Positions 4,112-14,793 of a DNA stretch of 32,741 bases are shown here, piece after piece. A program made the position numbers and the translations under genes. Source of the stretch: a virus; IMG/VR virus record IMGVR_UViG_3300042519_000516, positions 1 through 32,741 of that record. One strand, written 5' to 3'. How positions within the stretch are numbered: the stretch's first letter is position 1; the number at the start of each line of letters is the position of its first letter. The notes under the pieces were generated by a model. It ran no database searches. It saw only the letters and a list, made by a program, of their open reading frames with translations, and was not told the DNA's origin.

Positions 4112-4290
4112 GCAACATATCCATGGAGTTCTTCTATGACTCCCATGCGGCCGACAAATGGAAGGTCACCGTCTACGCCGGAAATGACGTGGGGTTCGAT
4201 CTCGTCGGTGACACCTGGGAAGGCATAATGGAGGACCTGACCTATAAGACGAAATGGGAGTTGGAGGGTGTGCTACCGGTCACTTGGTAG
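4108..4290 (+). CDS. 60-residue hypothetical protein
   Basis: Starts by ATGA overlap and encodes a small soluble, beta-rich acidic protein (ISMEFFYDSHAADKWKVTVY ... FDLVGDTWEGIMEDL). No family recognised. Its 3' end overlaps the convergent whiB-like gene by 18 bases, so transcripts from the two sides would be antisense at their ends; no terminator is visible here. Confidence 0.65.
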   Translation: MSNISMEFFYDSHAADKWKVTVYAGNDVGFDLVGDTWEGIMEDLTYKTKWELEGVLPVTW

Positions 4291-4527
4291 CGTGCCACCC
4301 CATATGCCGTGCCGTTCCTTAGCGGCCAACGCATATTCGAAACAGGCCATCTGGATGGGACACTCGGAGCATAACCGCTTCGCCATCTGGATGGCCTGCT
4401 TCCGTTGGCTACCAGCCTGGATGTCCTCAGGGAAGAAGATGTGTGGCACTGACTCGCATGGGACACTATCGACGGCGGCCCTGGCATCGGCTAGGCGGCC
4501 TATTGGTCGGTGTCGGTGCTTGCTCAT
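4273..4527 (-). CDS. whiB: WhiB-family iron-sulfur transcription regulator
   Basis: This 84-residue minus-strand protein shows the full WhiB signature: C24 before an IFFPED motif, then C53-x2-C56-x5-C62 (CSECPIQMAC), the four ligands of a 4Fe-4S cluster, and the GIWGG turn (74-78). The family occurs in Actinobacteria and their phages; members bind the host primary sigma factor and alter promoter use. A phage copy could redirect host transcription or act in superinfection exclusion, as reported for mycobacteriophage TM4. The C-terminus ends right after GIWGGTLPSDR, so the usual basic DNA-binding tail is nearly absent and action through sigma-factor binding is more likely. ATG 4527 lies 6 nt behind a TAGACT hexamer with no leader, facing the divergent gene at 4539. 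Confidence 0.93.
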   Translation of the reverse strand: MSKHRHRPIGRLADARAAVDSVPCESVPHIFFPEDIQAGSQRKQAIQMAKRLCSECPIQMACFEYALAAKERHGIWGGTLPSDR

Positions 4528-4541
4528 AGGATGAGTCTATG
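4525..4541. promoter_or_regulatory. Inverted repeat forming divergent, leaderless start sites
   Basis: The sequence CATAG-GATGAGT-CTATG is an inverted repeat. Its left end is the complement of the whiB-like ATG (4527-4525, minus) and its right end is the ATG of the exonuclease gene (4539-4541). Each strand carries a TANNNT hexamer exactly 6 nt before its ATG (plus TAGGAT 4527-4532; minus TAGACT 4539-4534). Both transcripts would start at or next to the initiation codon, and the two -10 boxes overlap, so polymerase can occupy only one direction at a time. Confidence 0.6.
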
Positions 4542-5432
4542 AGATATAACACACAGTTCCAGACAATCAGTGACACTTTCCAGGACGCCGTATGGTTGGG
4601 CTACGCCGACCACGGCTCAGACGAATGGCACGCCATGAGGTCCACCGGCATAGGCGGATCGGAGATTGGCACCATCATGGGGCTCAACCCGTGGGAGTCA
4701 GCGTTCAGCCTCTGGGCGAAACGTACAGGGCAGATACCTAACCCGCCGGTGGATAACTGGTCGGTGAAGTTCGGGCAGGTTTTTGAGGAACCTATCCTGC
4801 AACTGTGGGCTGACGAGAACCCTGAGTGGAAGGTGTATCGGACTGGGACATGGTCGCACGCTGCACACCCGTTCATGCATGCGAACCCTGACGCGCTCGC
4901 TCAACACCGTGACACTGGTGAGTGGATGGTAGTGGAGGTCAAAACGTCCAGGTCGTTCTGGGACGAGGTCCCACCGGCTTACCGGTCACAGGTGCTGCAC
5001 TACATGGATGTCCTCGGTGTCCGACGCGGCGTGATTGTCGCCGTCGCCGGATGGAACTGGGAGGTGCATGACGTTCTGTGGGATGACTTTGAGGCTGACA
5101 CTCAGAGGTCGCACGCGCAACGCTTCTGGGAGCACCTGGAACAGCATGTTCGGCCTGAGTGGGACGGGTCGAAGTCGACGTATGAGGCTCAGAGGCAACT
5201 GAACCCTCACATCGACGGTGAGGAAGTGGACCTGGGTGCACTCGGTTCTGAACTGCTCCAGGCTCAGACGGCCTACGACGACGCTGAGACGACGCTGCTG
5301 AAGGTGAAGGCTCAAGTGTTGGACGCTATGGGATCAGCGAAACATGGACTTGTCGGTGGTGAGCGTGTAGCGTCAAGGCAGGCACGGGGCGCTGGAGTGC
5401 CCTGGCTGGTAACGAAGAAGGGAAAGAACTAA
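4539..5432 (+). CDS. YqaJ-family viral recombinase/exonuclease
   Basis: This 297-residue protein belongs to the YqaJ/lambda-exonuclease type of PD-(D/E)XK nucleases that resect double-stranded ends for annealing-based recombination. Visible motifs: WHAMRSTGIGGSEIGTIMGL (residues ~30-49), the WAKRTG box, GQVFEEPILQLW, then HPFMHANPDAL and VVEVKTS carrying the catalytic Asp and E-x-K, followed by YRSQVLHYMDV. The C-terminal ~80 residues are helical. It pairs with the annealing protein encoded directly downstream (ends overlap by one base), the classic two-component recombination module. The start is ATG 4539 at the divergent promoter. Confidence 0.92.
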   Translation: MRYNTQFQTISDTFQDAVWLGYADHGSDEWHAMRSTGIGGSEIGTIMGLNPWESAFSLWAKRTGQIPNPPVDNWSVKFGQVFEEPILQLWADENPEWKVYRTGTWSHAAHPFMHANPDALAQHRDTGEWMVVEVKTSRSFWDEVPPAYRSQVLHYMDVLGVRRGVIVAVAGWNWEVHDVLWDDFEADTQRSHAQRFWEHLEQHVRPEWDGSKSTYEAQRQLNPHIDGEEVDLGALGSELLQAQTAYDDAETTLLKVKAQVLDAMGSAKHGLVGGERVASRQARGAGVPWLVTKKGKN

Positions 5433-6548: not shown

Positions 6549-6560
6549 TAGGATGAGCCC
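6549..6560 (+). promoter_or_regulatory. Leaderless -10 box for the HNH gene
   Basis: TAGGAT (6549-6554) ends 6 nt before ATG 6561, the same spacing found at other genes that follow gaps. No good -35 was seen. The box is identical to the plus-strand box at 4527. Confidence 0.5.
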
Positions 6561-6908
6561 ATGGCGATCAAACCGGCGGTGCTCAGACAACTGCATGCAA
6601 GGGACCCCTACTGCATGCACTGTGGGAGTGACGTGGACCTGGTCCCACACCACAGGAAGAACCGCGGCGCTGGTGGATCGAAGTCGCGGGAGAACGATGT
6701 CACAAACGTCATGCTTATTTGCGCCGTATACAACGGGCTCATGGAATCGGATGCTGACGTCGCACAACAGGCGCGTGACTGGGGTCACAAACTGAGGTCA
6801 TGGCAGGACACGTTCAACCCTGTTTTCGACTTTCCCTCTGGTCGGTGGTATCGTCTAACTCCCGATGGTGGGAGAACTGAAACGACAAGGGACGCTGTGC
6901 CCTTCTAG
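6561..6908 (+). CDS. HNH endonuclease
   Basis: This 115-residue protein has the zinc/HNH arrangement: C18-x2-C21 (YCMHCG), the catalytic HH pair (LVPHHRKN, residues 30-31), a glycine-rich turn (RGAGGS) and N49 ... C54 (TNVMLICAVYNGL). HNH proteins nick or cut DNA and in phages act in packaging, recombination or homing. It opens the replication-region operon behind the dyad-rich gap and starts at a leaderless-type ATG. A second HNH protein lies at 12905, closer to the terminase. Confidence 0.85.
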   Translation: MAIKPAVLRQLHARDPYCMHCGSDVDLVPHHRKNRGAGGSKSRENDVTNVMLICAVYNGLMESDADVAQQARDWGHKLRSWQDTFNPVFDFPSGRWYRLTPDGGRTETTRDAVPF

Positions 6909-13390: not shown

Positions 13391-13996
13391 ATGAAGATTG
13401 AGACTCTGAAAATCGCCGACCTCACGTTTGACCCGACGAACGCTCGCATCCACGATGACCACAACCTGCAGGCCATCCAGGGCTCACTCTCTCAGTTCGG
13501 TCAGCGCAAACCTGTGGTCATCACCCATGAGAACGTCATCGTCGCTGGTAATGGAACGGTGCAGGCCGCCACGCTTCTTGGCTGGGACACGGTCAGTGCC
13601 GTCAGGGTTCCCGCCGACTGGTCAGAGGATCAGGTGAAGGCGTTTGCGCTTGCCGACAACAGGACCGCTGAACTTGCTGACTGGAATCACGTGGAGTTGT
13701 CTGAGCAACTGACTGAACTGTCGTTGGCTGACTGGGATGTGAAGTCGCTGGGGTTCGGTGAGTATCAGATACTCGACGTTCGGCCTGATGAGGTCGACGA
13801 CCCCTTCTCACTGCTAGAGGATACGCCTCGCAAGGACGCGACACAGATGACCTTCACTCTGAGTCTGGAGCAGGCTGAGATTGTGAAGCAGGTGCTTGCT
13901 CAGGCGAAGCACTCTGACCGGCTACCTGATGATGAAGAAAACCAGAACACCAACGGCAACGCGCTGTTTCTTGTGGTGTCGGAGTGGCCCGGATGA
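13391..13996 (+). CDS. ParB-like (ParB/Srx fold) protein
   Basis: The 201-residue protein begins with a ParB/sulfiredoxin-type domain (residues ~1-110): IADLTFDPTNARIHDDHNLQ, SLSQFGQRKPVVI, VIVAGNGTVQAATLLGW and VRVPADWSEDQVKAFALADN. In phages this domain often precedes DNA methylase domains and appears in DNA-hypermodification clusters. Here it is free-standing and coupled by ATGA to a Mom-like gene, so a shared modification role is likely. The C-terminal ~80 residues are acidic and helical and lack a methylase. Confidence 0.88.
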   Translation: MKIETLKIADLTFDPTNARIHDDHNLQAIQGSLSQFGQRKPVVITHENVIVAGNGTVQAATLLGWDTVSAVRVPADWSEDQVKAFALADNRTAELADWNHVELSEQLTELSLADWDVKSLGFGEYQILDVRPDEVDDPFSLLEDTPRKDATQMTFTLSLEQAEIVKQVLAQAKHSDRLPDDEENQNTNGNALFLVVSEWPG

Positions 13997-14793
13997 GCGC
14001 GAGAGATATAGAGGTCCGAGGTATCCCGCGAAGCGCTGCCGTCGACTTCGTCCGACGCCATCACTACTCTGGAAAGGTCGACCCGCGATCACAAGTGCAC
14101 CTGGGTGTGTTCTACAACGACCGGCTGGAAGGTGTCATGCAACTGGGACCATCTATCGACAAGGCTAAGAGTGTGGGCCTGGTCCGAGACACGTCCTGGA
14201 ACGGCTTCATCGAACTGCACCGGATGGCGTTCTCTGACGTGCTGCCGAAGAACAGTGAGTCGCGTGCTATCGGTGTGGCGATGAGGATGCTCAGGAAGAA
14301 GGCACCACACATTGAGTGGGTTCTGTCATATGCCGACGGCACTCAGTGTGGTGACGGCACCATCTACCGGGCCAGCGGTTTTGACTTGCTGAAAATCACA
14401 CCTAACAAGTCGATGTGGAGGATGCCTGACGGAAACGTCATCTGCAAGATAGTCCTCGAACCTGGTTTCGGTTCAGGCTCGAAGGGTGAGAACAACATCA
14501 AGGCACGCTATAACAAGACGGGCTCAGAGACGTCCACGTCGTTCCTGAAGCGTGTCGGCGCTGAGTGTCTGGGTGGATATCAACTGAAATACATCTACTT
14601 CCTTAACCCGGCCGCTAGGGAACGGCTGACTGTTCCGATCATGCCGTTCTCGGAGATTGCCAAAGCGGGTGCAACCATGTATCGTGGACAACGCCCTGGA
14701 AGCATTGTTAGTGATGTGTCTGACTACCGGTCAGAAGAAGGCGGTGCGACTCCGACCTCAGGGCTCCAAGGCGGTACTGATGCCACAGGGTAG
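13993..14793 (+). CDS. Mom-like DNA-modification protein (GNAT fold)
   Basis: I prefer ATG 13993 (ATGA overlap with ParB-like) to GTG 13984, giving 266 residues. Key stretches: RRHHYSGKV, HLGVFYNDRLEGVMQLGPSI, ELHRMAFSDVLPKNSESRAI, VLSYADGTQCGDGTIYRASG. These fit the Mom family, whose founder in phage Mu converts adenine in phage DNA to a carbamoylmethylated form that resists restriction. The C-terminal part (YFLNPAARERLTVPIMPFS) is also familiar from phage Mom relatives. It lies between ParB-like and terminase genes, so modification could occur just before packaging. The family call is from memory of motifs. Confidence 0.75.
   Translation: MSARDIEVRGIPRSAAVDFVRRHHYSGKVDPRSQVHLGVFYNDRLEGVMQLGPSIDKAKSVGLVRDTSWNGFIELHRMAFSDVLPKNSESRAIGVAMRMLRKKAPHIEWVLSYADGTQCGDGTIYRASGFDLLKITPNKSMWRMPDGNVICKIVLEPGFGSGSKGENNIKARYNKTGSETSTSFLKRVGAECLGGYQLKYIYFLNPAARERLTVPIMPFSEIAKAGATMYRGQRPGSIVSDVSDYRSEEGGATPTSGLQGGTDATG

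Follow-up and report, generated by a model that had tools for sequence, protein, structure and literature searches.

A putative pair of back-to-back leaderless promoters within 17 bp at the divergent whiB-YqaJ junction of actinobacterial phages

The virus record analyzed here, whose 32,741 bases we call the window, has tail, lysis, replication, terminase, portal, and protease genes and comes from an actinobacterial phage. The junction of interest separates two divergent genes (Table 1). The leftward open reading frame matches Whib in Pfam (PF02467, E = 6.4e-15), and the rightward one matches YqaJ (PF09588, E = 2.4e-22, 80.3 bits against a cut-off of 22) as well as PHROG 434 (E = 1.8e-67). When the phage WhiB is compared with 11 relatives, C24, C53, C56, C62, and GIW are invariant, and the Wbl motif G[IV]W[GA]G is present. 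The protein ends in ...GTLPSDR, i.e., it stops at the last conserved arginine, and the basic tail or AT-hook is absent. Wbl proteins usually, although not universally, carry C-terminal basic residues or an AT-hook. Some accepted members of the WhiB3 class also lack the basic tail (PMC10245118). The closest solved structure to the phage protein is the chain named WhiB in 8dy7/8dy9. A nucleotide search of the region against phages and plasmids gave zero matches, and we found no cultured phage with a whiB/YqaJ junction: phiPsal1 and PFR1 have whiB, but not divergent to YqaJ. Elsewhere, positions 13984-14793 encode a Mom-family protein (Pfam PF25680, E = 4.3e-49), possibly involved in DNA modification against host restriction.

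Table 1. Features of the whiB/YqaJ junction in the window, and chromosomal gene pairs of Microbacteriaceae with the same layout.
Feature	Position or locus	Strand	Comment
whiB-like gene	4273..4527	-	84 aa; has GIWGG plus the four conserved cysteines, lacks a C-terminal basic tail
YqaJ / RecE-like recombination exonuclease gene	4539..5432	+	297 aa; first of an early DNA-metabolism gene run
Core element CATAGGATGAGTCTATG	4525..4541		whiB start codon (CAT), twin -10 boxes, YqaJ start codon (ATG)
-10 box TAGGAT, putative YqaJ promoter	4527..4532	+	6 nt, then ATG; TANNNT kept in 33/34 families
-10 box TAGACT, putative whiB promoter	4534..4539	-	6 nt, then ATG; TANNNT in 33/34 families; TAGGCT in the exception clade
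Predicted YqaJ transcription start	4539	+	First base of ATG; A kept where the YqaJ ATG is 15-19 nt downstream
Predicted whiB transcription start	4527	-	First base of ATG; whiB ATG here in 31/33 twin-core families, 3 nt downstream in two
Weak candidate -35 of YqaJ promoter, TTGGTC	4503..4508	+	Inside whiB; 18-bp spacer; read from the sequence
Weak candidate -35 of whiB promoter, TGGAAC	4556..4561	-	Inside YqaJ; 16-bp spacer; TTGGAA/TTGAAA-like in many relatives, confounded with coding conservation
GACAC (GACA at whiB +14..+17)	4510..4514	-	whiB codons 5-6; DNA-level conservation; candidate WhiA site
pabB/pabC-like divergent pairs, 17-18 bp twin layout	L178, L183, L192, L196-L201, L205, L207, L208, junction near 1501
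map pairs, same twin layout	L181, L184, L186-L188, L193, L195, L202, L206
upp/tadA pairs, same twin layout	L185, L204

On the plus strand the junction element consists of CATAG, GATGAGT, and CTATG. A previous reading of the sequence alone (the sequence-only reading) had stated that both ATGs lie within CATAG-N7-CTATG and that on both strands a TANNNT hexamer stands exactly 6 nt before the ATG, and we find both statements to be correct. Every TANNNT opens on the predicted start base of the opposite RNA, and the hexamers adjoin and have no bases common to both. As deduced from the -10 position and the ATG, the predicted starts are 12 bp apart in the window and 13 bp apart in some relatives. The pattern CATANNNTN{1,2}ANNNTATG occurs once in the whole window, at this junction. 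It is the joint presence of two starts and two hexamers that goes beyond chance, as it has this sole occurrence in the window and is conserved. Well-conserved -35 boxes were not found at the aligned phage junctions; the signals are weak and partly confounded with codons, because the upstream half of each promoter is the coding sequence of the other gene. Two further strings in the window resemble a leaderless start. A second TAGGAT-N6-ATG (6549-6563, TAGGATGAGCCCATG), nearly the same string as the putative YqaJ promoter, opens an ORF that looks HNH-like by eye and has no Pfam match, and TAGGCT-N6-ATG at 13391 precedes a 201-aa ORF (ParB-like by eye), a further candidate leaderless start.

The conservation of the junction was studied in 112 loci holding both genes, which were obtained by YqaJ and WhiB scans; the genes are divergent in 111 of them. 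We defined families by representatives below 90% YqaJ identity (n=34). The twin core TANNNTN{1,2}ANNNTA is found at the junction of 33 of these families, and of 15 out of 16 when the threshold is set at 70% YqaJ identity. We then considered the 23 families chosen solely for having both ATGs at a distance of 12 (n=18) or 13 (n=5), a choice blind to the -10 bases. In the distance-12 class every column varies except CAT, A, T, A, T, and ATG; apart from the start codons, these are the A and final T of either TANNNT. The same four bases are invariant in the distance-13 class, together with three others. On an IQ-TREE phylogeny of the YqaJ proteins, the six -10 core bases show 0 changes and the six N positions 7, 8, 9, 7, 9, and 11 (51 in sum), a count that takes in the core-matching families only. 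Given the weakness of the TANNNT consensus and the AT-richness of the gap, start codons and such strings might have met there by chance, but 33 of 34 families keep the core, with no change at its bases against 51 at the neighboring N positions. This conservation contradicts the chance reading and leaves it a practically negligible probability. The one exception family is the L159 clade, with 16 members, which keeps the whiB box as TAGGCT-6-ATG and has lost the box on the YqaJ side. In L145-L163, which belong to this clade, whiB is shortened at its start and the two promoters appear uncoupled.

The sequence-only reading had also centered on the inverted repeat, as the source of both start codons and both -10 boxes, and suggested aligning the junction in relatives. 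That alignment bore out the twin core and did not support the dyad as an independent element. In the window, the repeat extends to perfect 7-bp arms (CTCATAG/CTATGAG, 4523-4543). Perfect repeats are frequent there, with 39 having 5-bp arms and a 7-bp loop and 3 having 7-bp arms, and a single-strand hairpin at the junction is no more stable than those of shuffled sequences (z = -0.59). Across families only CATA/TATG and a central T/A pair are symmetric; beyond them, arm positions 5/13 are complementary in 1 of the 18 families of the distance-12 class, and positions 7/11 also in 1 of 18. The dyad alone is thus neither beyond chance nor conserved, and it is mostly forced, because CAT...ATG supply the start codons at its two ends, and directly inside each of them stands the A of the -10 box of the opposite gene. 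This bears on the possibility that CATAG-N7-CTATG is an operator, at which WhiB or some other phage protein binds as a dimeric repressor and silences both genes. A perfect dyad with 7-bp arms does lie between two divergent genes, one of which encodes a regulator, but the column and pair conservation across the 18 families is against this explanation, the element varies in length (17 or 18 bp), dyads of similar size are common in the window, and the phage WhiB has no C-terminal basic tail. We therefore rejected the operator, which we regard as very improbable.

The sequence-only reading further predicted that both RNAs begin at the start codon, and the comparison of sequences supports it, given the invariant -10 bases and the 23 families in which both ATGs stand at the predicted RNA start, each 6-7 nt after its hexamer. 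Of the 33 twin-core families, 31 have a whiB gene that is predicted to be leaderless, as it is in the exception clade; in the two other families its ATG lies 3 nt downstream of the predicted start. The YqaJ ATG is found 15-19 nt downstream of the predicted start in 10 families, where the twin core is unchanged and an SD-like site (e.g., AAAGGGG or AAAGGAG, with duplexes of -4.6 to -8.0 kcal/mol) precedes the moved ATG. The tree requires at least three switches between the leaderless and leadered states. Several groups have their leader where the leaderless versions have N-terminal codons, ahead of conserved Phe-Glu codons. For example, the SD-bearing leader of one group corresponds to the N-terminal codons of the other, behind the same promoter, when L108, L128, L138, and L141 are set against L096. 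ATGs that move on an unmoved twin core are the pattern expected if the twin boxes fix the RNA starts and the translation starts shift. TANNNT -10 boxes that lack a -35 consensus are established in Mycobacterium tuberculosis, where about a quarter of the genes are leaderless (PMC3898074).

The same data bear on a different assignment, in which only whiB is leaderless and the YqaJ RNA starts inside whiB, with AGGATGAG (4528-4535) serving as a Shine-Dalgarno site. An AGGA does stand 7 nt before the ATG, with a duplex of -4.0 kcal/mol, and 13 of the 23 doubly leaderless families reach -3.9 or -4.0 kcal/mol. The TAGGAT or TAAGGT of many families includes AGGA or AAGG, a weak Shine-Dalgarno-like string, so that in these the YqaJ RNA may carry a leader and start further upstream. 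Yet at least eight families of the leaderless class have no SD-like string (values of 0.2 to 1.0, or weak) and all of them retain the -10 bases; moreover, where a real SD exists, it comes after the predicted start and ahead of the moved ATG. We consider a leadered YqaJ RNA in the window to be unlikely.

The reading that we favor, with a probability of about 0.85, is that the 17 bp form a twin, back-to-back promoter of the sigma-A type from which both mRNAs are leaderless. Each strand would have its own TANNNT -10 box, with the boxes 1 bp apart (2 bp in some relatives). The leftward RNA would start at the A of the whiB ATG and the rightward RNA at the A of the YqaJ ATG, and the upstream half of either promoter would be the coding sequence of the opposite gene. 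Both open complexes would draw on the same base pairs, and one polymerase should accordingly exclude the other. Such mutual exclusion is plausible given the overlapping geometry and the bidirectional promoters of Escherichia coli, where simultaneous binding of two polymerases is prevented (PMC12825309). The element would then couple, as alternatives, the expression of a Wbl regulator and that of the recombination and replication gene run.

A second conserved sequence lies inside whiB. When the junctions are aligned on the YqaJ box, TGTC is found 12 bp upstream, i.e., GACA at whiB +14..+17, in 28 of the 34 families, against a background density of 0.7%. Codon 5 of whiB, where it encodes arginine, is always CGA (18) or AGA (5), that is 23 of 23, and it is GGA where the residue is glycine; elsewhere CGA makes up 7-9% of the arginine codons. 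The distance from GACA to the predicted start is unchanged where the whiB ATG has shifted by 3 nt. At the same position, three families carry CACA and two others GACG, and the fifth base after GACA varies. Besides the core, this asymmetric sequence within whiB is the sole conserved DNA box, so that the possible tuning by WhiB itself that the sequence-only reading raised would have its candidate site here and not at the dyad. The box is absent from the chromosomal twins described below (0/62). A WhiA gene is present in a metagenome-assembled genome (MAG) labelled Microbacteriaceae. WhiA and WhiB activate from upstream positions, from which the phage box, at -28..-25 of the putative YqaJ promoter, differs. 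The motif of WhiA is GACAC (PMC3781837), and the WhiB of Streptomyces acts with WhiA on a common regulon and has no motif of its own (PMC3781837, PMC4850268).

These observations suggest an addition to the twin promoter, not a replacement for it, that we put forward as tentative: host WhiA and phage WhiB may bind GACA and balance the two directions, probably with feedback. It would account for the box kept well above background, for the choice of codon 5, and for the constant distance between box and start, and it is in line with the shared regulon of the two proteins, the best structural match of the phage protein, the WhiA gene of the MAG, and the lack of the box in chromosomal twins. Against it, the match covers four bases only, some families deviate within these four, and the location is not that of an upstream activator; GACA might instead act in the RNA, as a signal for translating the leaderless message. 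Given where the box lies, repression or feedback seems likelier than classical activation.

The MAG mentioned above has three contigs with the phage junction and the same pattern at a chromosomal pair of the pabB/pabC type. The search for CATANNNTN{1,2}ANNNTATG in 100 Microbacteriaceae genomes gave 119 matches, compared with 35 for the reversed pattern, 18 when the spacing was increased by 2 bp, and about 65 (hand-summed) for the shuffled-core control CATNANNTN{1,2}ANNTNATG in the same genomes. The spacing control is the fairer one, because the shuffled core alters the rare TA dinucleotide. Among the inspected loci, true start-to-start divergent gene pairs make up 27 of 34 in Microbacteriaceae; the class-wide figure is 6 of 27, and that for Alphaproteobacteria 1 of 21. 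The 27 Microbacteriaceae pairs comprise aminodeoxychorismate synthase and lyase-like genes (the lyase assigned from sub-cutoff matches and the synthase read by eye), a small ORF paired with methionyl aminopeptidase, TadA paired with uracil phosphoribosyltransferase, and two phage junctions. Besides the start codons and TANNNT, which the search pattern itself demands, no position is conserved in the chromosomal pairs. Hence, the minimal device would be the start codons and TANNNT boxes alone.

Taken together, these elements might form a unit in phages of aquatic Microbacteriaceae, with two exclusive leaderless promoters in 17-18 bp, WhiB and host WhiA at GACA choosing between more WhiB and the recombination/replication run, and the bare twin as a general device of the bacterial family; as a whole, we hold this scheme to be speculative and rather doubtful. 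Both bidirectional promoters and leaderless genes have been described before; here the two would be fused, with both start codons and both -10 boxes in 17 bp. The conservation points to strong selection on the arrangement in phages, and in the host family the arrangement recurs at metabolic gene pairs that are unrelated to the phage one. It offers a sequence signature by which divergent genes that are obligately coupled may be found, a natural series in which leaderless genes become leadered while the promoter stays the same, and a small system for asking whether the competition of opposed polymerases serves as a switch.

Our literature search found no paper that treats double-leaderless divergent promoters as a class, and the known systems each match the junction in part. 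Lambda cI and the tetR of Tn1721 are located at divergent promoters, but there only the regulator is leaderless, the promoters are further apart, and the operators are known. As predicted for the phage whiB, both are regulators of mobile elements expressed from leaderless mRNA (PMC4681348). The bidirectional promoters of E. coli and Salmonella, of the type described by Warman, have divergent starts 7-25 bp apart, most commonly 18 bp, and also 10 and 23 bp (PMC12825309, PMC10268837). They resemble the phage element in that -10 sequences and starts reciprocally overlap and one polymerase excludes the other, as we propose here. They differ in that their -10 bases are shared, whereas here the spacing is 12-13 bp and the hexamers are separate and adjacent, both predicted starts fall on start codons, and each RNA would encode a protein. 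The prpD (Rv1130)/Rv1129c pair of M. tuberculosis also consists of divergent regulator and enzyme genes, with starts at the start codon that are mapped there and predicted here (PMC3898074). Unlike our junction, it is a single pair, for which the accessible part of that source gives no 12-13 bp spacing, common element, or conserved geometry (PMC3898074). With the WhiA/WhiB system of Streptomyces, the phage junction has in common a WhiB-type protein, GACA(C) beside a promoter, and a WhiA gene in the likely host (PMC3781837, PMC4850268). In contrast to that system, the WhiB is phage-encoded and without basic tail, and the candidate box is inside the whiB coding sequence. Relative to known bidirectional promoters, what is new is thus a predicted doubly leaderless pair, with 12-13 bp between predicted starts, that is conserved in phages and recurs on chromosomes of the host family.
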